64,000 nucleotides of DNA from Muricea muricata (lineage: Eukaryota > Cnidaria > Anthozoa > Malacalcyonacea > Plexauridae), in contig OY979718.1 of the NCBI GenBank assembly GCA_963855995.1, forward strand, positions 39,679,059 through 39,743,058, given 5' to 3'. The position numbers and the translations under genes were made by a program. Under the pieces are notes generated by a model. That model worked only from the letters and a program-made list of their open reading frames with translations, searched no databases and was not told the origin of the DNA. Positions 21,739-62,400 of the stretch are shown here, piece after piece (the first letter of the stretch is position 1; every line of letters starts with the position of its first letter).

Positions 21739-24069
21739 TATAATTGTGCAAAATACCTCAAAAACTTACCACTACAGTCTGTTTCATCCAAAGGGAATCT
21801 TCAGGTGGTAGACAAATTTCGAAAATGTGCGAGCTTCTTTTATGCTCAAGGCGGAAACGTGGGCGCGTGGGTGGTTGAATAGCATGCATTCCTTTCTTTG
21901 TTTAGGTTGTTTACCTGAAATCTGCTTTTGTGTTGGCAGGCCGAAACTATTTCCGATCTTTTGTTAAGCAAGCAATTGTTTTTTCCTTTCAAAATACTGA
22001 TTTTTTCCTCCAAACATAAATTACATCTTTTGGATCCTCCCGTGTAAGAAATAGACTTTTTTATTATGGACCATTTTATGGTGAAATCTGTTTTCTTTTG
22101 CTTTAAGTGCCAAACGTGTTTCGAAAGTTCCGTCTCGTTCGAATATTTTTTGTGTGTGAAAGATTTGATATGATTCCTGTATCGCTCTTTGAATGTGTTT
22201 GAGGTCATGCCAATGTAGTGCTTTGTGTCCTGTGTGTTGCCTGTCAAAATTGTTGCTTTGTATACAATGTCCTTACTCATGCACTTGTTCTGCAATGGGC
22301 ATGTGTGCTTGTTCCTACAGTTACAGTTCTCTGCGCTAATGTCTTGTGGTTGGCTTTTCCTAATTATGCGTGTGTTGTGACTTGTGATAATTGACTTAAC
22401 GTTGTTCATGCAGCTGTAACTGACCTTAACTGTGTTCCTATTGAAAATCTTGTGTAACTTGTTGCCTATTGGAAAGTGCGTGTCTACAAGCTTGAGGAAA
22501 CTGCGTGCGATGTTTGTCTTGACATTTTTGCTAAATGGAGGGTTAAACCAAATGATGTTGCGTTGCCTGTTCCTGCGTGGTTGCTGTGTTACATGTGGCA
22601 TATATTCCAGCTTGTGGCTGAAGTTGCTATGTCCTAGTGCGTTTTGATATGTTTGTACTGCATCGTCAAATACTTGTTTGTCAGATGACAGCGTTGAAAT
22701 GCGCTTGTTGATAGATGCTGGAAGTTGCCTTAAGATGCTGGGTGGGTGGTTAGAGTGCTTGTGTATGTATAACGGATCGTCATTGGGCTTCCTATAAGGT
22801 TTATATTTTCCGGTAGAAAGGTCGAATGTTACGTCTAGAAAGTTTACCACGTGTAAATTTGATTCTGCTGTTATTTTTAGGCCAAACTGTTCGAAAATTT
22901 TGTGTAGCTCTTTCCTGGTTTTGTCTGCCAAACGTGCTGATCTGTTTTTAATAACCGCCAAACCGTCATCTCTGTACAAGCCGATGTTTTTCTTGCCAAA
23001 CTTTTTTCCTAAATGGTTTAAGATGAAAAGACCTACTAGTTCGCAAATTTCTGCCCCGTCATAGCTACCCATGGTAACATCAAACAAATTGCTATTGTTG
23101 TTTTTGATCCACGGTCTTCCGTGATTGAAAAGGAGTGATTTCCTAGCGTGTTTTATTATAGAAATGTCTTCGTCCGAAATATCAGCCAAATTGGAGGCCC
23201 AAGATAGTGCTTGGTCCAGTAAATTTTCTGAAATTGACGGGTAAAAGTCGACTATGTCAAACGAAATAAAAGAATGCCTAGTTTTTTCCTCGATGCTGCC
23301 AAACCATTCTATGACGTTTTGCGTGTTTCTCCACTGGTTTACGTTCAAAATTGTCCGAAGTTTTGTGTTTAATCTGTCCAAAATTGATTTACTAATTTTT
23401 CCGGAATCGCTTTTTGCTGGGTTGATGAGCCGGCATTTTGGGTTGGTCTGAAAATTTTCCTTATGATCTTTGAGGGAAATAAAAGCTTCGCGTTTTTTCA
23501 TGCATTCAATCCGGTTGCCAATCGAAAGTTTATTTGCGATGTGGTTTAGTTCGTTGTTTATTTCCGAAATGTTTTCCTCAGATCCGTGTTTATATGTTTT
23601 TGTGATGTTGTCGTGCAAGAGCTTGTTGTATGTGTCGAGCGAGGTTTCATATATGTTCCTAGTTTTATCAGCGAAAACAAACATTTTGTCGGATAAATTG
23701 ATTTTCTTTAAGTCGTTTGCCAAAGTGTCTTGAAAATAGTCTTTTGTGTCTCGAAATTTAATGGTTTCTAGTAATTTTATAACGTCTTCTTCGAAAGGTT
23801 TCAGTTCCAAAACTGTGGGAGGTGTTTTGTTAGACGAAAGGCCGAAATTCCTAGTGTTTTCCTGACTTTTTTCTCCTTTTAGAAAGAAATGAGCTTTCCA
23901 TCTCATACGTTTTAGTACGCTTTCCGCTTTTTCAATCAAATTCCTCAAATAGTTGTCCCTTGATGGTATAGGGATGTTTTTCAGTGAATAGTCTAGTCGA
24001 AATTGCCTCATTTTAAGGTAGAAAATTAGATTTCGAAAACGAGAGTGCACAACCAATGTAGGGTGCGGA
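21739..24069 (-). mobile_element. Penelope-like retroelement, full-length coding copy
   Basis: The element lies between the two copies of a 54 bp direct repeat. Its 3' end (plus-strand TATAATTGTGCAAAATACC at 21739) faces a (TA)n tract. It includes a short 3' untranslated part and one open frame of 736 codons. Within the window its 3' 1,096 bp is repeated in inverted orientation at 24195-25290. Confidence 0.85.
21846..24056 (-). CDS. Penelope-like reverse transcriptase with C-terminal GIY-YIG endonuclease
   Basis: One uninterrupted 736-codon frame. The N-terminal third is helical with no named domain. The reverse transcriptase follows: an early block FISLKDHKENF with NPKCRLINPAK (about residues 195-220), the motif A block SFDIVDFYPSIS with its catalytic Asp (about 270), the MGSYDGAEICE block, and the motif C block YRDDG with the Asp pair (about 365). 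After a linker comes a cysteine cluster, CNCRNKHTCPLQNKC (about 580). A GIY-YIG-type nuclease follows, with YIGMTS, the KERYRNH arginine, an ETELSKHVW glutamate block and CNLCLEEK (about 600-690). Known elements of this group reverse-transcribe at a nicked target. All motif residues I can check are present, so the enzyme may be active or was until recently. The domain order (RT, then nuclease) is the usual one, not the permuted order of some clades. Confidence 0.9.
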   Translation of the reverse strand: MVVHSRFRNLIFYLKMRQFRLDYSLKNIPIPSRDNYLRNLIEKAESVLKRMRWKAHFFLKGEKSQENTRNFGLSSNKTPPTVLELKPFEEDVIKLLETIKFRDTKDYFQDTLANDLKKINLSDKMFVFADKTRNIYETSLDTYNKLLHDNITKTYKHGSEENISEINNELNHIANKLSIGNRIECMKKREAFISLKDHKENFQTNPKCRLINPAKSDSGKISKSILDRLNTKLRTILNVNQWRNTQNVIEWFGSIEEKTRHSFISFDIVDFYPSISENLLDQALSWASNLADISDEDISIIKHARKSLLFNHGRPWIKNNNSNLFDVTMGSYDGAEICELVGLFILNHLGKKFGKKNIGLYRDDGLAVIKNRSARLADKTRKELHKIFEQFGLKITAESNLHVVNFLDVTFDLSTGKYKPYRKPNDDPLYIHKHSNHPPSILRQLPASINKRISTLSSDKQVFDDAVQTYQNALGHSNFSHKLEYMPHVTQQPRRNRQRNIIWFNPPFSKNVKTNIARSFLKLVDTHFPIGNKLHKIFNRNTVKVSYSCMNNVKSIITSHNTRIIRKSQPQDISAENCNCRNKHTCPLQNKCMSKDIVYKATILTGNTQDTKHYIGMTSNTFKERYRNHIKSFTHKKYSNETELSKHVWHLKQKKTDFTIKWSIIKKSISYTGGSKRCNLCLEEKISILKGKNNCLLNKRSEIVSACQHKSRFQVNNLNKERNACYSTTHAPTFPP

Positions 24070-24123
24070 TATAATGTGCTAGTTTTGGTTAGCGAAATAC
24101 AAAAGAGTGCTCAATGACATATA
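24070..24123. repeat. 54 bp direct repeat, copy 2
   Basis: Identical to 21671-21724. It ends GACATATA, where the patchwork junction begins. Confidence 0.8.
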
Positions 24124-24194
24124 ACATTCGACCTTTACATTCGACCATATAACATTCGACCTGACATATAACATTCGACGCTCAATGACATATA
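24124..24194. other. patchwork junction of short repeated fragments
   Basis: About 70 bp composed almost wholly of two phrases in several rearranged copies. ACATTCGACC, four or more times, is the phrase found at the break in the Penelope-like coding sequence. GCTCAATGACATATA and its subfragments come from the end of the neighbouring 54 bp repeat. It joins the target side to the truncated inverted element copy. The pattern looks like repeated template switching between target DNA and element cDNA. Confidence 0.8.
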
Positions 24195-26093
<1,899 letters not shown>

Positions 26094-32800: not shown

Positions 32801-35800
32801 TTAGGATTATGACATAGTTATCCCGTGTTTCCATGGGAACCATAAAGTGCATGACAACCTAATTATAATTTAACTCTGTGTCATAGTCAAGTCTATTTCC
32901 ATGCCAAATTTGGTGAAGTTTGGTTGATTTGTTTTGAAACTAGAGTGAAAAGAGTGATTTTGGCATTTCAGGGTAAACTACCACCTTAAAGCTTAGGAAA
33001 GAGTTGCACAGTTTTAGAGCAGGATCAATGTTATTCCAGAGAGTGGTGGTTTTGTAGAGAAACGTTTTTTGTCCAGCAACAGTTTTGAATAAAGGAACAT
33101 CTAATTTATGGTTATTTCTTGTTTCCCGGCAACTCACTTCACGTCTAGTTCTGAACTGCGATGACAAATAGTCAGGTGCACAGTTGTTCATACATTTGAA
33201 TGCCAACAGAGCATCACGATAGTAAAGATGTGATTTCACAGGAATCCAGCGTAGATCTTTTAGGACTGGTGTGATATGATCGAATTTCCTGGAATTGCTC
33301 ACAACTCGTGCTGCAAAATTCTGAACTCCTTGAGTCGGCCTTTGTTGATACAGGAGGTGGATGACCAGAGCGAAGAGCAATAATACAGCTTGCTGAACAC
33401 TAAGCAATTTATCACAGTTACGAGTAGACTGTTGTTGAACGCATGCTTAGCCCGATTTATTTGACAGAGGGTTGAATTGCAGGATAATACTGTAGACAGG
33501 ATTTGGTCATCAAAGGGCAGTACTGGATCAAACGTGACTCCTAGATCTTTAACTGATTTGGACGGAGTAAGATATTTACCCAGTAATGAGATTCTAAATT
33601 CAGGTAGCTTTGCCAGCATTTGGCGGCTTCCGTAGATCATTAATTTTGTCTTCTCTGGGTTGAGTAGGAGAAGATTATCAAAGCACCAATTACGTATTCG
33701 AATCAGATAACCATTAAGATCAACCACTGCAGTACTTGAGTTATTGGTATGAAAGGATAAAAGTAATTTAGTGTCATCAACGTATGACTCTGAGGAACAC
33801 TTCTTGATGCTAGACGACAGATCGTTAACATAAATACTAAACAGCAACGGGCCAAGTATACTACCTTGAGGCACACCACTAACGACAGGTAATTTATCTG
33901 ATAAGGTCGAATTAATACGTACTGTTTGATATCTCTCACTAAGATAACTTTATACCAACTAAGGCATGAAGACGACACACCAACATGCTTCAGTTTAGCA
34001 AGTAGGATTTCATGGTTAATGCTGTCAAAAGCTTTGCTCATATCTAAGAGAATAACTGCTGTTACTTTCTTCTGGTCAATTACTTTCAGGATGGAGTCAG
34101 TAGAGTTAATGAGAGAGGTTTCGGTGGAGTGCCAAGCTTTGTTACCGCTCTGATGTGCGGAGAGACGACGATTTACTGTCAAGTAAGATGTTAGTTGATT
34201 AAGTGCAATCACATCTGTATATGATGGCTCCTGTATGTTATTGATTTCTCTGTTATCCAAACAAGTATCCGAAAACCAAAAAGATGCGTGTATATACAAT
34301 CGCCCAGTCATCTCTATTTCGCAAAGATAATTGAACTCCTTACTTTCCGCCAGAACTTCGCTCATGAAGAAACGGCACTTTTGAATGCATGTGCTCCTTT
34401 TCTTACATGCACCTTAGTGCTAAAATCCAGTCCTCACACGTTGATTAATCTGACCAACATATGTACCCCATTTTTCCAACCTACGTGCTTGGACTTGGAA
34501 TTAATTCTATCTTCTTGCCAACTTCAGCTAGTTATTCTTGGTCTTTAATAAATCTCTCTGCTTGTATACGGTACGTCACCTTATCTTGAACGTTTTGGTG
34601 TTTCCCTTTGCTGTTCGAGATAGACAGACTTCCACTGTATAATGGGAAGAAGTCCTATTCGATATTCTCTTATCTGCATATTGCTAATCTTGTCTATTAT
34701 ACACACATTCATTTGTACATGTACACACGGACGTTCATGACATTGCGGGCGTAATTGTTGTAATTAAAATGTCAACTTTAAATTTCTAAAATACTAGAAT
34801 AGGAACATGTATTTGCATTTAACTTCATATCTTGTTACTTTAGTGTGTCTGCTGCGCTTTTTGACAGGAGATGCAGAATTGTCCGGGTCTTCAATGAGTT
34901 TGCTATGTAAGTCTATCAAACCTTTGGAATATTTGACAGTTTTGACCTTAACTACCATTGTCGCATCTTGATCACACACAAATATAGTGTGGTGACGTTG
35001 TTGAAATGCTGAGACAGTCTACATAAGGTTAACACCATCTTCAATAGCCTTGTACGAGGCATACGCTTTGTGAACTCCACTTATTAAAATCATTACCTAA
35101 AAATTCATAACTTAGGATAAAAGGAATAAATCTGAAAGCTCCAAATGCAAAAGTCGATGCAGAAACATAGGTCGTTCAGATATGCATTTTTATTTTCAAA
35201 TGGGAATTGAACCTTCTTTGATTGGCTGAAATACATGGATATCTGACCACAAAAGATGAGTAAATAAAATACTTTTCCTACGCATTCGGTTAAAAAAGTA
35301 ATGATTCGTATGCATCATGTTCAACAAATTACTAAGCTGACTAATTACTAAACTGACTTACTGATTTCTCTGTTATCTAGCCATGTACCTGAAAACAGGT
35401 AAGATCCATATTCAATCACAGAATCTTTTCTGTTTTTGTATGCATAATCGAATCTCCTGCATTTTACCAGAACTTGGTTCTTGAACTGCCTTCATTCAAA
35501 AGGGACTTTTGCATGCAATTGTGCTCTTAAAATTCTCACACAGTTAATCTGACCGACATACAGTATGCTCTCTTTTTCCAACATACGTACTTGGACTTGG
35601 GATTAACTCTACTTATTCCAAAAAATTCTTGGTTTTTAAATCTCTGTGCTGGTATGTGTTTACTAACCAATTTGTAAAAGACTGGTTATCTCAAACCCCC
35701 ACTACCTAGAACCTTTTTTGTTTTTGTCTTAGCTATTTGAGATAGACGGGTCCCACTGTACACAAATTGAATGAAGTTTTGCAGTAAATTGTCTGTCAAC

Positions 35801-40360: not shown

Positions 40361-40421
40361 ACGGGCAATTTACGGGCAATTTACGGGCAATTTACGGGCA
40401 ATTTACGGGCAATTTACGGGC
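40361..40421. repeat. 11 bp tandem repeat
   Basis: Five and a half exact copies of ACGGGCAATTT follow a run of G. A flanking GAGGGGCGTCCAGAGG resembles a hAT terminus, but no matching right end was confirmed. Confidence 0.85.
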
Positions 40422-41535: not shown

Positions 41536-43800
41536 TTAATGCTTCTTACTCATCCTGCAATTGTTCTTTAATATTCTCTTTAGTGATCTTAGCGCTGCTC
41601 TTCGTTCTGGTCTTTTCTCTAACACACCAACATTTTCTTTAGTACTTGCATTGTGATTTTCTTTATCTTCCTTTACCCCACTTATTATTTCTAATGGAAA
41701 TACCAGTTGAATTGGGCGTTCTAAGTCTGACACCGTCTTTCCCTTTCACGTGCTTAACCACTTTTCCTTTCATCCACTGTCCTTTGTTCTTTTCCTCTCG
41801 TAAAATAATTATGTGACACTTTCCATCTTCTTTCTTCCCCAGAAATTCTTCCTTCGCATTTCAACACGTCCGTGCTCTCATCTCGGACATATTTCCATCC
41901 TGGACTGTCCAACATTTCGGGTGTTTCACCTTAAACTCTCTTTACCCAGTAATTTTTTGCGTTTTCAATTTCTTCTTTTTCGAGCTGTCCTTTCACTCGT
42001 TTCAACCTTTGACTAGACAGTTGTGTTTAAATCTCAAACACCAGGCCGTAACCTGTAATGTTTTCCAGCACGAGCTTCTTTCTAGCAACCAAATCCCATT
42101 CGTCTATTTCTTTCTGTGCCACCTGGCACACTAGTTCCTTCAAGGGTTTTTTTTTTACGTTTACTTCCTTGGTGCAGTTAAGATTTGGTTGTTCTGGCTG
42201 TTTCTCTTTGTCCAAAAGCCAATCTGTGCCATGAAACCATCCATTATCTTCCATTCGATTGATACTCGCTCCCCTACTGCCCAGATCTGTTACGTTTTCT
42301 TTCGATGGACAATACTTCCACTTGATATTAAGATCACTCGTTACAGACGCCATTTTCTTCACTCGGTTAGCAACAAATGTTTTCTATGATTTGGCTGGAT
42401 TCAATATCCAAAATAGTGCTACGATGCTGTCCTTCTACACGGTCACCGAAACGATGGGTAATTGTTTCAATTCTTGACACACGTTCTTCGCTATTTTTGC
42501 AGTCATGTGGCCTCTAATTATCGATTTTGCTGTTGACCAACCACTCACACCTTTCAATGTTCCTGTGGAATGATCAACAACCACTATAATTGCACATGAA
42601 CACGCAAGAGCGCTTGCATCTGCGAAGATATGAAGATGGATTTCTTTGATTTTTCGAACACCCTTTGTGATGCTTCTTGCAATTTCAACATTTCGTAACT
42701 GTTTTGTCCATTTCAACCAGTCGTGTTTCAAAGGTTGCGAGACATCAGCGTCCCAAGTCTTAGTTTCGTCGCAAACTTCACCATAAATTCTCTTTCCTTC
42801 CGCCATCGTTGGTGAAGCTATGCCCAGCGGGTCATAAATCTTTCCGAGAGGACTTACAATGGACTTTTTCGTGACCTATGTCTCTTGTGGATATTCAGGA
42901 ACCGAGATATACATTTCGTCTTCTTTCTTGTCCCATGTAAGACAACGAATCTTTGACGGGTTGGGCATGTCCTCGCTCTCTGAGGCTTCCACATTGGATT
43001 CCCACTTATGTAGCGGTAGTTTGGCACTTTCCAAGACCTCTGTAGCCTCTAATTTGAACTTCTCTAACTCCGATACATCAATGCCAATTTGCATAATGTT
43101 GTCAACGTGTGTGTTATCTTTCAAAGCTTTTACCGTGTCTTGGATGTCTGTTGGTTGAAGATCTAAGTAATGCTGAACGATCGCTTCAAGCACAAATGGA
43201 CTTGACTCGACTCCAAAGCGTATTCTAGTAAAGCAAAAGTGTTCTTCGATTCCATTGATACTGAACAAAAATCTAAACGCCTCACGATCTTCTTTCAATC
43301 CGATTTGTAGGAAAGCCTTTTGTATATCTGCGAGAATCAGTTGTGGGGCCATTCGTGCTCGTATCAAAATATCCCAAAGTAATGGTTGGAGTGGCGCACC
43401 GGTAAACATGCAATCATTAACGCTGTTGGTGTTTGGGGTTGGCTTCGCGCTGGCGTCAAACACCATTCTTACTTTTGTACTTGTCGCTTGATTCTCTGGT
43501 AAACATACATGTATTATTTGCAATGTCTCCACGTCCATAAATCAGCCAACCAAATGAAGTGCCTTCAGCAATGGGGTCTCTGTCATTCCCTTCGAAAATT
43601 TCTTCAGACTTTATTTTGTAGAAGGTGCTGCCCCCCAAGATCATATGTATAGGATTTTCACCACTTGTCGTCATGTAAAACCTCTTATCCTTCGTGTGAT
43701 CGTAACTCAGTTTAAGTTTGTTCATGTCCGATCTTTTGACTGTTGTAAAATCTTGCATTGCTGATCCTGCTTGCTATATGTCTTCCTTGGCTGTACAGGT
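41536..43800 (-). pseudogene. BEL/Pao retrotransposon pol, 3' portion (decayed)
   Basis: Minus-strand pieces in order: the post-protease region (43758-43456, with IHMILGGSTF and EGTSFGWLIYG); reverse transcriptase (43538-42876, with VRMVFDASAK, the motif A region LILADIQKAFLQI and RFGVESSPFVLE); a connection and RNase H part (42806-42435, with HIFADAS); an integrase N-terminal part (42362-41740, with SKENVTDLGSRG); and the extreme C-terminus (41733-41536, with RPIQLVFPLE). At the polymerase motif C the usual Asp pair reads VDN. The integrase catalytic core is missing between about 42.0 and 41.75 kb. Several frameshifts and stops are present. It is the second half of the element whose gag lies at 48.2-49.5 kb. 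Confidence 0.85.
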
Positions 43801-44032: not shown

Positions 44033-44224
44033 TTGGCGACGAGGAAAACTCACTTGATTGTTTTACAAAGTCATCGTTTATATACACAAACGATTTATAA
44101 CCTCGAAAGTCAGTTGGAAACGTTATACACAAGCTAAAGATGGCAACTGGCCGATCGATTTGACCCCAATGGCGCCATTTAATCCGTTGTCTGACCCAAG
44201 TTCGCTCAGTCAACGCTGAAAAAC

Positions 44225-45000
44225 ATGGAAACGTCGTTTGAGACCTATCTTATTGCTCTAAATGTGACCGACAACAAACAAAAGCGAGCTCTCTTGTTGT
44301 ATCAAGCTGGCCAAGCCACGCAAGATATTTTTGACACCTTGGCAGAAACGGGTGATGACGACGACTACGATTCTGCTGTCGCATCTCTCGACATGTATTT
44401 TTCGCCAAAAAAACATGTGGACTACGAAATTTTCAAGTTTCGTACGGCAAAGCAGCAAGCAGATGAGTCAATAGATCAATTCACAACTCGTCTCAGAAAG
44501 TTAGCAGCAACGTGTGACTTCACAAGCATTGATAAGGAAGTCAAATCAGCCATAATTCAAAACTGTTGATCAAAACGTTTACGTCGTTATGCTCTTCTCG
44601 ACAATGAACTTACGCTAGCAAAACTTTTGGCAAAAGGTCGAGCTTTTGAACTGAGTGAATCGCAAGAAACTGGAATCGAAAAGTCGCTTGAATCAACAAG
44701 CATTTCTGAGGAGGTCGTTGAAGCTGTTGGCCCTAGCAACAGAGTCCCTGCTCAACAACAAGCATCACGTACACGTCAATATTCTGTCACGCAAGCGCAG
44801 TGTAGAAACTGTGGAGGTCCCTGGCCCCATAACAACAATATTCCAAGCAAAAGGAAAATCATGCTTGAACTGTGGAAAGCCAAATCATTTTGCAAAAGTC
44901 TGTCGCAGTGCTACTCGAATGCGTCGTTCCAGTCAACATGATCCTCGACAGTCAACTAAAAAGTCTCAAAAAGTGCGTAAAGTCTGTGTAAAACCTGGAA
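44225..45000 (+). pseudogene. Gypsy gag (broken)
   Basis: The gag frame starts METSFETYLIALNV at 44225 and is stopped by TGA at 44567. It resumes in frame and shifts near 44820 into the frame that carries a CCHC knuckle (CLNCGKPNHFAKVC). The capsid-like part contains FKFRTAKQQADESIDQF. Inactive. Confidence 0.8.
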
Positions 45001-49503: not shown

Positions 49504-50431
49504 AAAACAACCCTATATATGGTCATACCCCGTTATCGCTAATTTCAGCTCTTAATTAAAACTTACGTTATTGTTTCGAATTCATACAAATTGTGATTTT
49601 CAGCCTGTTTAACCCCTGAAAGAAGGTTTAAAAGTGCCAATAGTTCCATAGGCTTGTGCTGTGCATGAAGCAAGAGTTTTGACTCATTTTGCCTGAGCAG
49701 GAGTTTGATCTCCTCTCGGAAAACTCTGGCAGCACTTATTTGTTCTGCTACATCAGTGAAAAAACTTAAGTCTACCGATGAAAAAGTAAATACTCATGTT
49801 ATTACGGCTGGCCACAAACATACATACTAACATATTAAAATAAAGATAAGTTTTTCCATTTTGAAACGTGAAAATGCCGTTAAATTTTGAATATTCACAA
49901 ATTGGCTGAAGTTTGAAACTTTCTGCCAGAGCAGCAGTTTTTTTTTGTCAGCTCTGGAGTTTTTTTGTCCGGAGCCAGAGGGGAAAAACGTGGGGTTTGG
50001 CCAGCACTACCATAGACTTGTGTTTAGCTTGCTTTTCCAGTCATTCCACTTGATTGCCTATTGCTCCAACTACTATAATTACTGTGAAACCTGCCTCTGT
50101 AAGATCTGATATGCATCAATTTTTTAATGGTGCATCTGTCTTAAGTAACATATACGGACAGTAAATCCTGATCAGTAATTATTTTTTATTATTATAGATA
50201 TTTCAGCTCCCTGTCAAAATTCACAGTCTGTTGTCTGACCTAGCTTGATGGGTACCAGTATACACACACATCTATTAACTCAAAAACTTTCAAATTTACA
50301 AGTTACAAAATGGATTAATTATGGGCATGTTTTCTAGTAAGAGATAAAGGCCGACATATGTGGAAAATCATATTTGAAAAAATTTAATAAATATCATTCT
50401 GAAGCAACATTTTCATGAATGTCTTGTGATC
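49504..50431. other. intergenic and 5' flank of SLX4
   Basis: No exon is supported. A four-codon upstream frame (ATG at 50415, TGA at 50427-50429) ends two bases before the SLX4 start codon. No TATA box stands out. Confidence 0.5.
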
Positions 50432-53400
50432 ATGTCAGTAAAACCATCAATTAAGAAAAAGCGGCTAAACTTGAGAACAAAAGTAGCTTCTAGTAAGGCG
50501 GAATCTACTGATTCAGAACAAAGGATACAAACTGATAAGGAAACCGACTTGTCTGAAGATAATGAAAGACAAACAAGCATATCAGTAAAACGTAACTTAG
50601 ATGATGAGCACCTGGATGGAACAAGTGACTGCAATGATAAGGGTGCTGCATTAAAAGCAATTGACAAAATTAGTTCAAACATGCAGTGTTGTCCTGTTTG
50701 CAAATATGACTTCACCAGCATGTATAGTGATTTCAGTAACTTAAGCAGTGATTCAGAAATAAATGATCATATTAACAAGTGCCTGGACAGTGAAAAAGCT
50801 CAAACAAAACCATCCAGTCCATGTGAAGGTTGTCAAATTTGTGGGAAAGATCTAAGTAAATACAATACAGTTCGACGTCAGCAACACATCAATAGATGCT
50901 GTGATGAGTCAGAGAAAACAAAGCCAGAAGTGACTTCCATTTGCTGTCCCATATGTGGAAAACCTTTCAAAACAACAAAGGTAAGAACCACTTGGCAAAA
51001 TATTTAGATTTTATTACTCCGAATGTGATTTTATTTGTTTTATTTATGAATTTTATTAAGTAGCCAATGGTAATATTCTGTTGGTAAAAACTGCAGTAAT
51101 TGCAGGAATTTGCAGAACTTGTGACGTCATCGATACATGCGTAGAATTTAGACAGAAAAATGCTCAACTCCAAAATTTCAAGCAACGTGGCTGCATGGAA
51201 ATGAAACATGTATATATGTTTTCTTATGGCCTTGCTGGGCACTATTCTCTTTGAGTTGCGTAAGTTAGTATCGTAGTTGCGTGAGGTAGTATTTTTATTG
51301 ACGTCATTATTATTTTTACTTATACTTTAACTTATACCAGACAACAAGGGCAACTTGATATGTGCAACATTTTAGTGAAAAATGGTTTCTGTATGTTTAA
51401 TGTAACTAGTACTATTGAAAATATAAAATCATTGCTAAGAGAAACTTATTTCATTTTTGGTCGCTATGTCATGTTTTTTTCAATGTCAATTTTTTAAATT
51501 TTAACACATATCAGATATTTATGGTTTAAATTAATGCTTACGCCAGCAAAATCAATTTTTTTGATGTCAACGAAAAATGTATTTTATTTCAAGCATGCAA
51601 TGTTGCTTAACTTTTAGAAGTGAGCAGTTTTCCATGCAAAGCCCATACAGTATCCTTATTCAGCTACAATACTGCTATTATTATATGTATTACATGTATA
51701 GTCGAGGCAAGCTCATATGAAAAAGTGTGCAAAATTGAATAATGTTAGCACTCATCATTTGGTGGAATTAAATCGAAAGGAAAATAGAAATGATCCAAAG
51801 CTCACAAACAGTTCAAAACAAAACCCTGCCCAAAAACCCACTGCCCAAAACAACAACGTGGCTATACAGGATACGTTAAACATCGCTAGAAACAATTGTA
51901 GACGAAAAAGAAAGGCTACTCTTCCATCCAAGTAAGTAACATTGTCACCTTCCTTCATTAGTTCATTCGCGTTCTGTCAGACGAATCTCTTTTGAAATCG
52001 GGAAACACCCCTCCCCTCCCACCATTAACGCACTAGTTACGCCCTGGACACCGATTTTACGCAGTCTACGTAATTATATTCGAATATTTTTTTTCAATGA
52101 CATAAATATTAAATCCAGTGTTCACAATTGTTTTTGAAGTAGAGTTACTACGCTAAGAAGATTTTGGAGAGTAATGATTCACACTTTGTTGAAGTTAAAG
52201 GTCCATGTTTGTGGGAGGTGGGGGTGCAATCTGGCCCGAAAAGATCTTGTTTTTGAAGGAAATTCCCTAGGTCACCGACCCGTCTTTCTCTCGTTTTTTT
52301 TATAAACATAAATAATCTGTTTCCAGAAATACTATTACGAGCACACGTACTCAAGTGTTTGGTCACGGTTGTTAAACCCGAGGAAGCATTAAATTGAGTG
52401 TTTACTCGATATTTAACAATTATTTGCCGAAGGCGAGGTGATTATCGGGGAATATTCACCGAGAGGAAGTCGAGGTGAATATTTCCCGAAAATCACTGAG
52501 CCTGAGGCGAATAATTGTTTTAGTGTTTTTACACAAGTTATTTTAATTTTGTTTATTTCTTTGTCCGTAATTTGTACAAAACGGCGGCTAGTCGCCATTT
52601 TGTAAACTTGCTTTTACTGTTATATTCACCTGTAGGTGAATATAAACGAATGTCACGTCATATTGGACCAATCACAACGTCGGATTTCTTATGTTCACTT
52701 GTGTAAAAATACTAAAAGTGTATATTCCTCAGTTGTGAAATATCTTGTAGGAATTTGGATGATGATACTCAGCTCGCGTTGGCCTTGTCAGCGTCATTGC
52801 AATCAGACTCTTCTGATATCGGAGAGCTTGGTAGACGAAAGACGAAAAAGCAAAAGAAAGAAAAGTAAGATGTGTAAATGATCACTTTTTCCTTTTGTTA
52901 GCAAACTAATTGAACTTCCCAATGTATGCGCTGGATTTTCCCCTTGTTTTTTAAAGCTTTGCCTTGTGGATATATTGCCCTTTAGTGTATTGTATATGAT
53001 ACGGAATTCACATCATCTTTTTTCCTACCTACTTATACCTACCCAAAATTGTCTTATTATGCACCTAAAAACGGCCAAAATGTCTCAATCCGTTAAATTT
53101 TTTACCTTTAATTTGCCTGCATGACGATCATGCGCCAGTCAAGTCAACTTGAAATTGAAGTTAACTGGGATTTGAAAATAATAAATTAGCCTGATTGTAG
53201 CCTGCTCTACCTGCATGACCTCAAATTTGGGAATTCATGCACTTTCTTTTTTTTTTTCAATTTGTAGCAACTGCTTTATATTTAATTACAAATTTAGCAT
53301 GCGTGTAGGTCAATTCTGTTTTGGCTTACTGTTCCACAATTATATGCAAAGTATAGAAGAAATATCAAGATAGGGTAAATTTGAAGGGTGAAGGGTTAAA

Positions 53401-56400
53401 GCAGCATCAACGTAAACATTAACTACTGAACGAGCATGTACAATTCAGATAATATTTTACACAACCATTATCCTTAGAAGTTGGACAAAAAAATCTTCAA
53501 TCCATATCGTCAACCTTTTTACTGTGTCGCATGGAATATCTTTGGATAAAGGCACAATAGCGTTTCCAAGATCATCTTTCGATTTGTACTGCCTCCTTTG
53601 GATTTATGCCCGAAGATCAGGCTAGATATTCCTTCTTTCTGTGTTTTGCTTCAGATATAAGTCGGAAAACTTTTTGCGTGTGGCATCCTGCATGTTCATG
53701 CATAGAAACAAGTTTTTCACAGATATATGTGACGACCTTTGGTGGCTTGTGCTTGCCTTGTCAAGCATCAGCAATATGATATTTTCGGCAGGAGTTTTCG
53801 ATTATAACTGAATCAACTTATCTGAACTTCTCCGATTCCAATGTACTTTTGTAAAAAAAAATAAAGAGACCTTTTTAACAAGCCTATGAGCAATATATTT
53901 TTCAGTTCTTATAAAAACAGGAAATTTGAAATTTTTTACGGTATACCGCCATACTTTAATTTTAAGTAACACAAAAGGTGATCACTCTTCGCTTTCTCGC
54001 AAAGTTCATTTCGACGCATTTCCAGCATAGGACACTTTAGAGTACAAAATAAAAGAAATTCCGAAAATAGACATCTTGTATTTCTGATATTCAAGGTAAC
54101 AAAAAAAAAACAAGAAAACGACCGAGGCGGTGATATTTCGTCTTTATTCCAAAGACATTGTCAAACCAATGTCTTTTGACAATGTCTTTTGACAATGTCT
54201 TTGAATAAAGACGAAATATCACCGACTCCGTCGTTTTCTTGCTTTTTCTTGCGCATCCTAAGTAAAATTATACACGGTAACATCGAATTTTTTGTTCTCA
54301 TCCAAGTTACCATTCTCATCGGATGCACTTTTGCTGCCAAATTCTTTTCATCGTCCTTGTCCTTTGTTTTGGTGAACATTTTTCTACAGCAAGATCTTGG
54401 CAAGTATCTTCCTGTAAAAGTACTATCTCCACAAATTCGCCCGCTGCCACCTTTACGTCACCAAAATTTCTGCTGTGCTGGCGAAGCATAAGTGTAGCAC
54501 GTTCAATTTGTACCCCAATCTCTCGTCTCAATCCACTGTAAAGAGACATGTCATCTTTGATGGCCTGAACAAATGAATCTTACATAACCATTCAGTTATA
54601 CAATATATCTAACCTATTATTCAAATTTCAACAATTGAACTTATCATTAAAGACATAGTTACATTTAAGTGGTTAAACATACAATACCGTAAAGTAATAA
54701 TATCATTTGGTGCCCATTTCGCTCGATGTTAGGTAATTTTTAACAGGTAAACGTAATCTCGAGTAAGAATCATGCACATCGAAATTAAAGCCGGGAACAT
54801 CAGACAGCACTCTAAAGTGAGTCTGTACAACTATTAAACGTGTTATGTTAGTATCGCATTATTTACTATAGTATTGTCGTTAAACAACTGCACTATTTAT
54901 TTTGCTCGCACTATTTCTGCGTTACGTTAAGAATAATATACTGTACCAGGAAAACGAAAATCTTCTACCTTTTCTTAATACTGTAGATGTCAATCTAGAC
55001 ACATCACACATATATAGTTAGCATCGTTAATATCGCTGCTATATAGACAGCTATTGTTACTGGAACACGTATTGCAATCATAATCGTCTAGTATTATGAC
55101 TCAAGGGAGGTAAATGGGATTTGACAATCACGATATTAGCTCTAGCCGTGTAGATTGTGGAATCCGCTAGTTTTTACAATGCATTTGCACTACCAGTAAT
55201 GCCTATCTTCCCTTACCATGGGTGGGTAGAGAATTAGAGATTCCACCGGCAGTCTTGGTCGAATCTTGGTTCTTTTTATTTTCCTTCTCAGCATTTCACA
55301 GGCTTGCGTATCCACGCTTCGATAAACTTGTCAAGTAGCATAGCTCAAGTGTTCTATCGTAGTTTGCTAATTTGATTTTAATTTACTTCTCTCTCCATTG
55401 ACGTTGGGTTTGTGCCACTCACCTTGTTGTGACGTGATAAGATCAAAGATCCTTAAGATGGATGATCTTGTTTCAGAGAGAGCTTTGCAAATTGCAATAA
55501 TTTATAATTATCCTACAATCTTAGTTTGGTCTGTTGGTAGATACTTTAAGTGACCCCCCATTATAATGTATCAGCATAGTTTATATACTAACATATACTT
55601 AAACATACATAGATATCCTTAGTACTCCTTAGCCCTCCAGACTTCCTTAGCTATACCTACCGCTCCTTTCACATGCTTACCAGTCCTCGAGTATTCTTAC
55701 ACCTCCCTAGACCTCCTTAGCCCTCCTTAGACTTTCTTAGCTATACCTACCGCTCCTTTCACATGCTTACCAGTCCTCAAGTATTCTTACACCTCCCTAG
55801 ACCTACCTAGACCTCCTTAGCCCTCCTTAGACTTCCTTAGCTATACCTACCGCTCCTTTTACATGCTTACCAGTCCTCAAGTATTCTTACACCTCCCTAG
55901 ACCTCCCTAGACCTCCTTAGCCCTCCTTAGACTTCCTTAGCTATACCTACCGCTCCTTTCACATGCTTAGCAGTCCTCAAGTATTCTTACACCTCCCTAG
56001 ACCTCCCCACACCTCCTTAGCTCTCCTTAGACTTCCTTAGCTATACCTACCGCTCCTTTCACATGCTTACCAGTCCTCGAGTATTCTTACACCTCCCTAG
56101 ACCTCCTTAGCCCTCCTTAGACTTCCTTAGCTATACCTACCGCTCCTTTCACATGCTTACCAGTCCTCAAGTATTCTTACACCTCCCTAGACCTCCCTAG
56201 ACCTCCTTAGACTTCCTTAGCTATACCTACCGCTCCTTTCACATGCTTAGCAGTCCTCGAGTATTCTTACACCTCCCTAGACCTCCTTAGCCCTCCTTAG
56301 ACTTCCCTAGCTATACCTACCGCTCCTTTCACATGCTTACCAGTCCTCAAGTATTCTTATACCTCCCTAGACCTCCCTAGACCTCCTTAGCCCTCCTTAG

Positions 56401-59400
56401 ACTTCCTTAGCTATACCTACCGCTCCTTTCACATGCTTACCAGTCCTCAAGTATTCTTACACCTCCCTAGACCTCCTTAGCCCTCCTTAGACTTCCTTAG
56501 CTATACCTACCGCTCCTTTCACATGCTTACCAGTCCTCAAGTATTCTTATACCTCCCTAGACCTCCCTAGACCTCCTTAGCCCTCCTTAGACTTCCTTAG
56601 CTATACCTACCGCTCCTTTCACATGCTTAGCAGTCCTCAAGTATTCTTACACCTCCCTAGACCTCCCCACACCTCCTTAGCTCTCCTTAGACTTCCTTAG
56701 CTATACCTACCGCTCCTTTCACATGCTTACCAGTCCTCAAGTATTCTTACACCTCCCTAGACCTCCCTAGACCTCCTTAGCGCTCCTTAGAGATCCTTAG
56801 CTATACTTACTGCTCCCTTCACATGCTTAGCAGTCCTCAAGTATTGTTGCACCTCCCTAGACCTTCTTAGGCCTCGTGAGACTTTCTTAGCTGTACTTAG
56901 CTATGCTTGGAACTGCCTTGACATGCTTAGTACTGCTCATATATTCTTACAACTCCTTGGACCTTCTTAGTTTTCCTTAGACTTCCTTTGATATACTTGT
57001 CACTCTCTTCAGATGCTTAGCACTGCTTAAATATTCTTACACCTTTTTAGACCTCCTTAGGCCTCCTTAGCTATAGTTACTATTCGCTTGACAAGCTTAG
57101 CACTGCTCAAATATTCGTAGACCTCTTTAGGCCTACTTGGGCCTACTTAGCCCTCCTTAGGTCTACTTGTACCCTCTGAGGTATACTTTGCGCTCTGTGG
57201 ATATGCTTCGTACTGCTGAGATAGCACTGATATTCTTGGACCACCTTAGACATCGTTAGGCCTAGTTGGACCACCTTAGGCATGCTTAGCTATAGTTAGC
57301 ACTTCTTCGGTATGTTTAAGACCATGTCAGTGTTCTTTTTCCGGAGTACATACATGAACGTATTTTGTCAAGAGGTAGTAACACATCCTTCAGCATTTTT
57401 AAAACTTCTAACGGTATCTTATTGCTTTGCTTGGATTTGATGTGAAATAAAAGGTATGTATGTCATTGTATATTGTGATATTTTATGATGTAAAGTATCA
57501 TATTGTTTTCATAGGAATTGCAGTTTAAAACGGGTGATCTCGCCGTTAAATTATTGTGATATTGCCGTTTGTAAGAGTTATCATGTAACAAGTTTTCTTC
57601 TTTCCAGCATTTCAAGAACCTTTTACGATTTTGTTTGTAATAAAAGATCTTTAAGGTACGCTGTGAGGAGAGCGTTGTTTTCCTCCAGTGCTGTGATAGA
57701 AAGGAAAATAAGACTCTGCTCACAGGGTAACCTGAACGATATTGATACAAAGTGTATTAGGATGATGAACGATATTATGATGTACTGGAATTATGGGCAT
57801 TGTAACACTGACAAACTCACATGTCACACATCACAATAATGTCACGATGAGATTAATTTATCACATCTATTTGACAATTTCTATAAAAAATTATACTTTA
57901 TATCATAAAATAACACATAAACGCATACCTACCTTTATTTCACACTAATACGCAACGTTTGCCGTCATTGTTACTGTTTACAGGGGTGTAAATCCCATGA
58001 AGGTATGGGGGGGGGTCGGCTCACCCCCCCCCCAAGACTAAAATGAACAGTTTTGTCGGGCAAAACTAAGTGTTTTGTCGGGCAAAAAGCAACCAAGGGT
58101 TTTAAAGAAAATTTAATCTGTTTAAGTAAAAAAATACTAAATTACGAAGTTGGTGCAATATAATGCGAAACAAAATGATTTTTTTTACTTTTATTTATTT
58201 GACAATAACTTTTATTTGTGAGTAATATCTAATTAGTGTGGGCGTGGCTTTTCCAACCACGCCCTTTTGTTGGGCAAAATTAGTTCCCCCCCCCCCAATC
58301 TTGAGACCCAAGTTACGCCCCTGACTGTTTAAAATGATCAAAACTGAGTCCGTTTCACGTGTAAGAAACGATTATTTGTATCATTTGAAACCCTAAACAA
58401 GCTTCTACGCCACGAAATTGGTATGTTTTATAAAAAAATAATAAAACGTGCATCAAAAAATGATATTCGCGGTCGGTCCGGTTTTGCATCTAAATGGCTT
58501 CCGCTTCAAACTGTCAAACGTCACGCTACAAACATAAAAAACTCGCGAAAATGTTTGCGCTTGGTGCTTCGACGCAAATTGCTGTACCGTTAGAAGATTT
58601 AACATGATGAAGCATCACGCATGTGTTACTTCCTCTCGATAATATACGTTCCATCCCAAAGAGGTGTAAGAACAACTAAGTGTGCTAGGCATGTCTAGGG
58701 AGTGCTAAGTATAGCTCAGAAGGGCGAAGTAGGTTTAAGGCAAAACTATATTCAGATTAATTTAACGCAGAGAAAAACGAAAAATCCGTTGTCTCGAGCA
58801 AGATTCGAAAATATTTATGGCATTTAAATTGGATAAGACTCGCTACCAATCACAGTTGGCTGACTTGGCTCGATAGCTCAATTGGTAGAGCAGCGGTCTA
58901 ACATCCCGACGATGTGAGTTCGAATACAACTCGAAACAACAAATTTTTCGTTCTTCTCTGCAGTGTAAGATTAATATGAATCTAGTTTTTCATATCTCTG
59001 ATGATGGTTCTGAAATAGGTTTAACGACGTGTAAGAAAGTTTGAGCAGTGCTAAGTATAGCTAAGAAAGTCTAAGGAGGGCTAAGCAGGTCTAAGGAGGT
59101 CTAGGGAGGTGTAAGAATACTTGACGACTGCTAAGCACGTGAAGGGAGCGCTAAGTAAAGCTAAGGGAGTGCAAGGAGGTCTAGGGAGGTCTAGGGAAAT
59201 GTAAGAATACTTGACGACTGCTAAGCATGTGAAGGGAGCGGTAAGTATAGCTAAGGAAGTCTAAGCAGGGCTAAGGAGGTCTAGAGAGGTGTAAGAATAC
59301 TTGAGGACTGCTAAGCATGTGAAAGAAGCGGTAGGTATAGCTAAGGAAGCCTAAGGAGGGCTAAGGAGGTCTAGGGAGGTGTAAGAATACTTGAGGACTG

Positions 59401-62400
59401 CTAAGCATGTGAAAGGAGCGGTAGGTATAGCTAAGGAAGTCTAGGGAGGGCTAAGGAGGTCTAGGGAGGTATAAGAATACTTGAGGACTGGTAAGCATGT
59501 GAAAGGAGCGGTAGGTATAGCTAAGGAAGTCTAAGGAGGGCTAAGGAGGTTTAGGGAGGTCTAGGGAGGTGTAAGAATACTTGAGGACTGGTAAGCATGT
59601 AAAAGGAGCGGTAGGTATAGCTAAGGAAGTCTAAGGAGGGCTAAGGAGGTCTAGGGAGGTCTAGGGAGGTCTAGGGAGGTGTAAGAATACTTGAGGACTG
59701 TAAGCATGTGAAAGGAGCGGTAGGTATAGCTAAGGAAGTCTAAGGAGGGCTAAGGAGGTCTAGGGAGGTGTAAGAATACTTGAGGACTTGTAAGCATGTG
59801 AAAGGAGCGGTGGGTATAGCTAAGGAAGTCTAAGGAGGGCTAAGGAGGTCTAGGGAGGTCTAGGGAGGTGTAAGAATACTTGAGGACTGGTAAGCATGTG
59901 AAAGGAGCGGTAGGTATAGCTAAGGAAGTCTAAGGAGGGCTAAGGAGGTCTAGGGAGGTGTAAGAATACTCGAGGACTGGTAAGCATGTGAAAGGAGCGG
60001 TAGGTATAGCTAAGGAAGTCTGGAGGGCTAAGGAGTACTAAGGATATCTATGTATGTTTAAGTATATGTTAGTATATAAACTATGCTGATACATTATAAT
60101 GGGGGGTCACTTAAAGTATCTACCGGTCTGTTTCTCTGTGTCCGCGCCTTTGAGAGGCTTAAAGTACTGCTTAGACTGCCACTATCTACAAGGCTGGAGA
60201 TAATATCGTAATTGTCAAACCTTAAATATTTTATTACAAGAAATACATAATATGCAATAATTTTAAATTTGAAAATCCTCTTGTGTATTTGAATAATTTT
60301 AGACAGTTCCACCATCTTCTTTATTAAGAGATTGTTAAGAATCTTGGACATAATATATACTTAAAACACTTATTTATATTTAAAAAATTAAAGCACAAAG
60401 GAAATCACAACCGTAGCAGTGGTTTATGCCTGGTAAAATGCTGTATATTTATATCCTATAAAACACTCCTATATATACATTTTCAATGTAATGTTTGATT
60501 GCAGGTCAGAATTGCCTGCGCTGTTGTTGAGGAGCGATGATGAGATGAAAAAAGTAACAGAAGCCAGAGCTGCAGCAATTCTTTGTGAATGGGTAATGGA
60601 TTAAAAATGTTCTTTTAAATACCTCTGTTATGAGCGGACACCCTTATCTCTTAATTTATTATGCAATTGTTTTGTAAAGGCTGATGACGAGGAGGAAATA
60701 CAATGCACCCCTGCGCTTGCACCTAGTTCGTTAATCAAGAAATATGGCCAAGAATCAAGCTCTGATACTCAAGAACCCGTATCTCAACAAACTGAAGGAT
60801 TGGATGATGATGATGATACAACTGAGGGATGTAATAGTCCTGTAATAGAGGTTCGCAAAACATCACGCAGTTATTCGAAAAAATGCTTCTGCACAAATGA
60901 ATCAGAATCGCTGGGTATCAATGCTTTACAAGGTGAACAGATCAAGGTAAGCTCACATAAAGCTGAATTATTTGTCTCCAATGGACATGAACTCTCGAAA
61001 TAATTTTTCAAATATTGTTGTAATTTTTTCTGTTAACACACGCGAATTTAATAACATTTAATTTAATATAATTTATTCTTTGGCACACCCCATAACCTGG
61101 GTATATAAGCGACTGAATATACTAAAAGAAGGTACATCGTTAAGATATTGCTCCATAGAGCTGCTGTTGACCTTATGCATTATTAATAAACTCACAACGC
61201 ACACGAAGACCGAAGATGTCATCGTTCATTCTGTATGTTAAATCTACAAATTCAGTAACAGAATATGTTCACTTGTGTTAAATATATCTTCTCCTAGCAA
61301 TATTTTACTGTCGATACTCGCAGTCGATTATGGAAGTTGACGTCACTTAGAAGTGATCTGATCACAGGCAATGTCTTTTATGTCCCAAATCTTTTACCAA
61401 AATCAACACCGCGCAAGAAAAAACAAACAAGAAAAATAAATTCAACTACAAGCGAAGAACAACTTCAATGTGTTGACACACTGGAAAAACATCAAGACGC
61501 CCCCAAAGGTATTGGGAAAAATCGGATTCTGCACATAAAAGTTTTTGTGTATATGACCGTGTTCATTCGTGTAGATGCATGTATCAATAATATAATCATA
61601 CATGAATTGTGCAATTTGATTGGTTGAAGGGATTGCAGTTATTTCATTAATTCTCTCGTGAGGAATAATTAGAAATGTCTGTGTGCAAAACGTGAACCTG
61701 AAGGGAGTTATAGGTCATGAAATTGCCTATAGGCTGTTTCCTCGCCTCATTTCTTGTTTCATATTCCAAAAATTATGTACTAATGATACTATTATTCGTT
61801 TCTATGCTAATGAAAATGGAAATTTAAAATTATAAAAAAAATTAAGTTACAAGACTATTACTAAGACTATATGCGCACACGAGGTCGTTTCCGAGCGTTT
61901 TCACGACTGTCAAAATGAAATGATGTTTTTAGTTTTTGTTCTTTATGCTGGTTTTCACTAAATTGTGCTAATACGTCGGGAGCTTTTTAAATAATTCGGA
62001 ATGAAAACGCACGAAAACGACACCGTGTGCACGTAGCCCGTACGATTTTTAGAAAAATTATAAGCAGGAATACACTCAGAGAATTTTACTGAAAGTAAAG
62101 CGGAACTTGCACATCAAACTATATGTAGTTACTTCGTGTTAATTTTAACCAATAACTTGAATCACGACTTGGATTACATGCAGGCATCAGATGAGTTCTC
62201 GTTAAAAATGTAACAAATTAGATAAGCTGAAGATGCCCTTTGATTCTGCACATCTGCACATCGATTCTGCTCGTAAAACAAAGTGAGATTCCCAGATACG
62301 AAGAATACCCAAATTTCGCATCTTTTGTTCTTTTTTTCAAATCGAACCTTTTGTTTATGTTAATTATAATCATATATAGCAACCCAAAACAGTGTTAGAT

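Follow-up and report, generated by a model that had tools for sequence, protein, structure and literature searches.

A probable foldback DNA transposon with minisatellite arms in Muricea muricata, its dispersed copies and a candidate coding relative

The stretch of Muricea muricata DNA analysed here, referred to as the window, covers 64,000 nucleotides of contig OY979718.1 (assembly GCA_963855995.1, positions 39,679,059 to 39,743,058), and at 55536-60124 it carries a sequence that is very probably a non-autonomous foldback DNA transposon. The sequence lies between two copies of the target site duplication (TSD) GGTCTGTT, whose identity is complete at 8 bp and lost at 9 bp, and its ends (GGTAGATACTTTAAGTG) match each other perfectly. 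Comparing the two ends further inwards, we found the first 199 bp to be identical and 386 of the first 395 bp to agree. Matches to the tip with up to three mismatches occur in the window at these two ends only, against 0.21 expected by chance. Each tip is followed by ~90 bp of unique sequence and then by a minisatellite array, the two arrays having opposite orientation; the left one shows a period of ~100 bp with 10-bp sub-repeats according to Tandem Repeats Finder (TRF). An initial annotation of the window had described an exact 8-bp duplication, matching ends, about 100 bp of unique inverted sequence and opposed arrays of more than 1 kb per side, all of which agrees with these results except the size of the right array, which is ~1.0 kb. 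The parts of the element are listed below, where TIR stands for terminal inverted repeat, MITE for miniature inverted-repeat transposable element, and Q for a coding relative.

55536-60124, no strand, 4589 bp: whole element, probably a non-autonomous foldback transposon, with TIRs and an exact 8-bp TSD; one of 21 two-ended elements
55528-55535, no strand: left TSD GGTCTGTT, with an exact second copy at 60125-60132
60125-60132, no strand: right TSD GGTCTGTT, an exact match to the left copy
55536-55624, plus strand: left terminal unique domain with tip GGTAGATACTTTAAGTGACC, its first ~45 bp closely similar across three subfamilies
55625-57070, plus strand: left arm minisatellite array (TRF), 14 units counted, 90/100-bp units of 10-bp sub-repeats (CCTCCTTAGA-like)
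57071-57330, plus strand: degenerate innermost array units, 67-78% identical to Q arm units in the longer matches
57334-57824, plus strand: segment like the inner left edge of Q, 84% identical to L051:130-604
57830-57949, plus strand: segment like the inner right edge of Q, 90% identical to L036:264-380, with a putative ~24-kb deletion junction just before it
57981-58323, no strand: nested hAT-like MITE (CAGGGG...CCCCTG) of 343 bp in the centre, with its own exact 8-bp TSD ACTGTTTA
58432-58660, plus strand: second segment like the inner right edge of Q, 80% identical to L036:439-679
58741-59012, no strand: nested 272-bp inverted-repeat element in the right arm, with a tRNA-like stretch at 58867-58938
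~59032-60035, minus strand: right arm minisatellite array, inverted (TRF), 9 units counted
60036-60124, minus strand: right terminal unique domain, an inverted copy of the left domain

The nested MITE is one that we take to be hAT-like from its end motif and TSD length. The tRNA-like stretch scores 28.5 bits with the Rfam tRNA model, just below the gathering threshold of 29, and ARAGORN (bacterial code) predicted no tRNA in it. Pfam scans gave no match for two of the 112-150 aa frames present in the cores, nor for two frames of the window core.

Using the 19-base tip as a pattern, we searched the 453-Mb assembly containing the window and found 40 exact sites and 10 with one mismatch. A further 8 sites have two mismatches; these are at chance level, because a reversed control pattern, when up to two mismatches are allowed, has a total of 8 sites. 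Tips were paired into elements manually, by orientation and distance, and 41 of the 50 good sites fall into 21 elements, namely the window copy and those designated A to T; one end of D is missing its last 8 bp and hence stands outside the 50. Nine tips are single, including three on C2 at 63.52, 63.69 and 63.83 Mb, which lie 140-313 kb apart and were kept as such. Five of the nine were read (L043-L047), with C3:48415550, C5:9604620, C9:6680096 and C12:11020948 left out. The element is thus not a one-off oddity. In viral contigs, the exact tip pattern gave 0 matches.

The junctions of all 21 elements were read. An exact 8-bp duplication flanks 15 of them and two more (L and S) match at 7 of 8 positions, so that 17 of 21 have a TSD at 7/8 or better; no 9-bp match was found among the 21. 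When flanks from different elements were paired as a control, 420 pairings gave 4 exact matches, each of them between members of the trio B, J and L, which have one target repeat in common. The exact TSDs differ in sequence between most elements. As its check of mobility, the initial annotation had proposed a search for copies at scattered sites that have GGTAGATAC ends and differ in their 8-bp duplications; such copies are present, and they support its reading of an 8-bp-duplicating DNA transposon. Neither of the outcomes it had set against mobility, a single copy or other copies without duplications, was found (the duplication is absent in 4 of 21 and imperfect in 2 of 21). The window core (57334-57980) recurs in ten other copies at 96.6-97.8% identity, and all ten also contain the tRNA-like inverted element and the nested MITE, the latter in broken form in H. 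This shared content indicates descent from one ancestral derivative. Judged from sequence comparison, the window copy belongs to a young family with rapidly changing arms.

To describe the arms, we compiled unit statistics for 11 copies including the window (1054 units), leaving out K as a fragment, L as a member of another subfamily, and M to T, whose arms were read in part. The number of units per arm ranges from 4 to 203, and arm length from ~0.4 to 19 kb, the longest arms (A and D) reaching ~18 and ~19 kb; an ordinary short-armed MITE is thereby rejected. There are 298 unit types, 117 of which were found at least twice, and of these 33 are common to several copies and 84 private to one, with D supplying 34 of the private types. 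For 74 of the 84 private types, all occurrences lie in a single arm. When the units of each copy were shuffled between its arms (2000 rounds), an average of 36.5 types, and never more than 51, were restricted in this way, so the confinement is not an effect of unequal arm sizes and it indicates local arm growth. Identical private units are most commonly spaced 10 and 23 units apart (27 and 25 of 215 spacings). Likeness to the commonest unit is lower in the inner than in the outer third in 17 of 20 arms, equal in 1 and higher in 2. Together, these patterns point to units being amplified inside one arm, frequently as blocks, and occasionally passing to the other arm.

The coding relative, Q, spans 29,906 bp (C2:54825940-54855845), is flanked by the duplication TAAATTTG, and carries the window's tips and arm units. 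Its left inner edge corresponds to 57334-57824 of the window at 84% identity, and its right inner edge to 57830-57949 at 90% and 58432-58660 at 80%. Since the window core matches both inner edges, it can be read as a Q-like element minus a ~24-kb middle, and the window copy is best read as an internal-deletion derivative of such an element. The nested MITE was not found in the pieces of Q that were read. Q contains one frame of 836 aa that no stop codon interrupts. At the C-terminus, this frame matches the OTU cysteine protease model above the Pfam gathering threshold (25.2 versus 23.3 bits), and its N-terminus comes near DUF6729, below threshold (24 versus 27), a family of which the literature searched makes no mention. 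The initial annotation had expected an autonomous copy with the same ends to name the superfamily; a relative with these ends and an open transposase-like frame does exist, whereas the name it provides, IS256-like, is a weak one.

An alignment of eight family members of this genome, including Q and a more distant element, N, has four invariant positions in all eight rows (D275, D349, D370 and H373), and the seven rows that extend far enough all have E468. D275, D349 and E468 form a candidate DDE triad. The IS256 model NF033543 matches three of the eight members, best at 1.3e-6. Pfam matches at E up to 1 comprised 12 families for the eight members, and among them PHD finger, FLYWCH, THAP and P family domains are absent. 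Transposases of the Merlin, P, hAT or KDZ/Zisupton type were rejected, no such family being listed for the eight members at that threshold. Searches for the Q transposase in phage records gave no match, and the N transposase had 5 pattern matches in viral contigs, none of them confirmed. Further transposase relatives occur in many inverted gene pairs spanning ~4 kb (e.g. C15:8890725+/8894732- and C5:5974155+/5978045-; also L057, C2:50033300-50037800), which look as if the transposase gene itself sat within long inverted arms.

Taken together, these results make it very probable that the feature in the window is a non-autonomous foldback transposon that moves by cut and paste, with a Q-type transposase acting in trans and arms that grow locally. 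The Q-type transposase would recognise the conserved tips, cut the element out and reinsert it by way of cuts staggered by 8 bp, and by acting in trans it would also move deletion derivatives, the window copy among them. Gains and losses of arm length would result from slippage or unequal exchange inside a single arm, accompanied now and then by copying from arm to arm. A further role of the arm repeats may be as secondary transposase-binding sites, for which Galileo offers a precedent (PMC3688188).

A number of results weigh against parts of this interpretation. Four of the 21 elements are without a TSD, namely the clipped D, H and K, which are embedded in palindromes, and O, whose flanks are unrelated. 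The two palindromic copies, and the fact that tandem arrays such as these arms readily recombine, would fit a local inverted duplication of a minisatellite that is not mobile and whose 8-bp repeat arose by chance. We regard this as extremely improbable, given that the 21 elements are dispersed, that their exact TSDs are mostly different, that ten other copies have the same core, and that empty target sites exist. Array lengths rely on correct assembly of long repeats, and 10 of the 84 private unit types are present in both arms of one copy. If arms grew not through ordinary unequal exchange inside an arm but through transposition-linked gap repair, in which excision is followed by inter-arm copying, these shared types would be accounted for, as would the identity of the window copy's ends over 199 bp. 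The confinement of the other 74 types to a single arm speaks against it, as do the commonest spacings of 10 and 23 units, which fit block amplification within an arm; gap repair as the source of arm growth is therefore rather unlikely.

A further set of difficulties concerns the enzyme. Q is 80-90%, not 97%, identical to the window core segments, and its transposase is single-copy, the next match among the best candidates being 40% identical. Q may thus be a cousin of the true partner, and another transposase, for example that of an unassembled closer relative, may have moved the window family; we consider this unlikely, as Q has the same tips, arm unit and inner edges, and transposase matches among the 21 elements, in the best candidates scored, lie inside M, N and Q only. 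The affinity of the enzyme is less clear. Q itself matches the IS256 model at 3.4e-4 with 19.7 bits, far below the curated cut-off of 150, and in the same scan one member matched an unrelated pore-forming-toxin model at 1.9e-4 and one matched ISL3 at 5.6e-4; single IS256 matches prove little when unrelated models score similarly. In Pfam, the only transposase models at E up to 1 are MULE (PF10551), in one of the eight members at 0.14 and absent from the matches listed for the others, and ISL3, in one of eight at 0.005, and a profile search of solved structures in the PDB gave matches in the OTU region only. It is conceivable on these grounds, if not what we favour, that the family represents a new or unlisted DDE superfamily with an OTU fusion, distinct from IS256/MULE. 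The IS256 matches in three members argue the other way, as does the 8-bp TSD, which is compatible with both IS256 and MULE (PMC5225508, PMC6446971). A distinct superfamily would change the name and leave the foldback mechanism as it stands. As far as sequence allows, we read the enzyme as probably IS256/MULE-like DDE, with a weak superfamily placement and real doubt.

Elements with closely similar tips fall into three subfamilies, in which the first ~45 bp are closely similar and the arm satellites different. Subfamily I comprises the window copy, A to J, Q and the three single C2 ends, and has the 10-bp/100-bp repeat; K, a fragment, is also placed here. Subfamily II, with a 9-bp ATCTTTGTA-like repeat, comprises L, P, R, S, T, two single ends on C13 and, by its right arm, O. 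Subfamily III consists of M and N and has another 9-bp repeat. The DNA ends of N and Q are 91-93% identical over 46 bp, whereas their transposases are only 28% identical.

Like Q, N (C1, 28,966 bp, duplication GAGTATGC) is a large multi-gene element, and the two have six protein segments in common; these correspond to five frames in Q, because transposase and OTU form one frame there. Identities are 28% for the transposase, 30% for OTU, 28% for a CXC-like segment and 46% for a P-loop-like fragment, with two unnamed segments at 32% and 26% (the latter weak, 2.9e-5). The CXC and P-loop labels were assigned by eye, and a CXC model matches one of the eight members at 7e-4. Q has a SWIM finger above threshold, in a frame separate from the transposase, and N an SSB-like OB protein, which NCBIfam matches at 2.9e-7, far under the cut-off of the model. 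M is 29,892 bp long, and its transposase is 95% identical to that of N over 278 residues. Two other Q frames (L062:3993-4502 and 4703-5083) resemble YqaJ exonucleases in motif only; Pfam gave no match to either.

Still larger units occur in subfamily II. R (C4:4089087-4167231) spans 78,145 bp between perfect duplications (CAGCGCAC), and T (C7:2319809-2369048) spans 49,240 bp between perfect duplications (TGACTTCG). We sampled them in 11 and 8 stretches of 600 bp, respectively (L064-L082). One 14/25-bp satellite is present in all 19 samples, filling or nearly filling 18 of them and part of L067, and it also adjoins an arm of S. Neither R nor T has a transposase match among the best candidates listed. 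The alternative in the initial annotation, an element that captures satellites, is thus partly right, with three arm satellites among similar-tipped subfamilies and a fourth inside R and T. A more speculative reading, which we hold only tentatively and think rather unlikely, is that of a foldback clade of ~30-kb multi-gene elements (OTU-fused IS256-like transposase, CXC-like and P-loop-like proteins, SWIM in one, SSB-like in another) in which only the ~45-bp tip stays near constant and every lineage builds satellite arms of its own de novo. Satellites would be scattered by the derivatives in blocks that reach 78 kb and are bounded by perfect 8-bp duplications, and element-encoded DNA-handling proteins may drive array growth. 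If so, the family would be a dedicated satellite-generating machine.

Insertions recur at one position of one dispersed repeat, which is occupied by six of the 21 elements (A, B, J, L, P and R), members of two subfamilies, and by both single ends on C13. The empty target repeat exists as well, the 40 scored candidates (of 1801) being 99-100% identical to the joined flanks. Inside the target repeat, the flanks of B and J are nearly the same, and the two may not be independent insertions. Copies of the target repeat also occur as near-identical inverted pairs ~28-29 kb apart (L059-L061; e.g. C10:2124118/2152631, C8:10260323/10289735, C11:12180338/12209795 and C15:199307/228692), so the repeat may mark one terminus of a further large element; the arrangement suggests that this further element was recently active.

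Unusual arrangements were seen at several copies. H (L022, L083/L084; C4:5579967-5584127) lies in a palindrome, with flanks mirrored at 99-100% over at least 1.9 kb per side and no TSD, which is either an assembly error or the outcome of fold-back repair that started from the TIRs. K (L026; C8:7327402-7329046) is a small fragment in a similar palindrome, with 263 of 300 flank bases mirrored. The C13 ends at 6440984 and 6513528 (L046/L047) are 72.5 kb apart and face away from each other; their flanks are the same sequence inverted (100 of 100 bases read), with TA runs inside the element at both. This is possibly an inversion or a large palindrome from recombination between copies.

The family has the features of the foldback class, i.e. 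long tandem-repeat TIRs, TSDs at dispersed sites, and arm length that varies between copies. Foldback arms of tandem repeats are found in sea urchin TU elements, which have an 8-bp TSD, and in Drosophila FB. Such arms are likewise established for Tm1, Tetris, Galileo, Muta1 and, in part, Rehavkus (PMC3169594, PMC4079207, PMC3688188, PMC3573991, PMC5225508, PMC6446971). The 8-bp TSD falls within the MULE range of 8-11 bp (PMC6446971). MULEs are related to IS256, and Muta1 of Aedes aegypti was named a type-2 Foldback element by its authors; Muta1/Phantom MULEs resemble the Muricea family in an 8- or 9-bp TSD and subterminal tandem repeats in the TIRs (PMC5225508, PMC6446971). However, Muta1 itself is 3.2 kb long with 145-bp TIRs and 9 short repeats (PMC5225508, PMC6446971), whereas the Muricea family has arms of ~0.4-19 kb, coding relatives of ~30 kb and an OTU-fused transposase with no Pfam MULE match above threshold. 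The Phantom combination of a MULE domain with FLYWCH was not seen, FLYWCH being unlisted and MULE weakly matched in the one member noted above. Rehavkus is MULE-related, with a minisatellite beside a TIR, and is distinguished by a 9-bp TSD and a PHD finger (PMC6446971), neither of which was found here. Tm1 of root-knot nematodes has composite TIRs with a varying number of tandem motifs and occurs in MITE-like, cargo-bearing and transposase-bearing forms, but its TSD is mostly 9 bp, its motif ~14 bp and its transposase Phantom-like (PMC3169594).

Tetris of Drosophila virilis is similar in its TSD, 8-9 bp in complete copies, and in TIRs of up to 1.7 kb, whose internal tandem repeats seed satellite arrays; it differs in its 220-bp repeats, its autonomous partner was not found, and the excerpted report describes no switch of arm satellite between subfamilies (PMC4079207). 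Galileo of Drosophila has long, internally repetitive TIRs, independently varying arms and two-TIR deletion derivatives, but belongs to the P superfamily, with a THAP domain and a 7-bp TSD (PMC3688188, PMC3573991). A C-terminal OTU protease on the transposase is known from some families of Ginger1, whose transposase, unlike this one, is Gypsy-integrase-like and whose TIRs measure 44-270 bp (PMC2836005). Satellite spread by transposons is also known, from oyster Helentron derivatives (PMC7492417). In the open-licence literature searched, Repbase being outside its scope, we recognised no prior description of an OTU-fused foldback transposase. Nor did that literature contain the combination of ~30-kb multi-gene coding elements, an OTU-fused IS256-like enzyme, subfamily-specific arm satellites, arms as long as 19 kb, and units of 49-78 kb that are rich in satellite. 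As foldbacks are known and this combination was not found, the family is of an established structural kind, in a multi-gene, satellite-generating form of unusual size.

Around the element, the window holds other features. The initial annotation had placed the element inside SLX4 intron 3, which is at most a putative location: the upstream open reading frame (ORF) at 50378-51007 resembles an SLX4 structure for no more than 17 residues (E 0.6). A type I hammerhead ribozyme at 25717-25762 (37.9 bits, gathering 34) adjoins a large inverted ORF pair at 21846-24110 and 24125-25183, which we presume to be Penelope-like with a repeated part, Pfam giving no supporting match. Other retroelement frames include a reverse transcriptase above threshold at 33299-33949 and RVT_1 and gag matches below threshold at 42876-43541 and 44195-44569. 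A perfect 11-bp tandem repeat, ACGGGCAATTT, is present in 5.5 copies at 40361-40421 (TRF).

The origin and spread of satellite DNA is an old open question. Here one genome contains a graded series, from a coding 30-kb element through young deletion derivatives that share one core and have arms of 4-203 units to satellite-rich units of 49 and 78 kb whose target duplications are intact, so that arm growth is measurable copy by copy. Some foldback families, such as Tetris (PMC4079207), are without a known coding partner, whereas the Muricea family has a candidate with an open frame, making binding to tips versus arm repeats directly testable, and recurrent insertion at one repeat position makes target choice testable too. 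The element shows how a transposon can enlarge and disperse satellite DNA.

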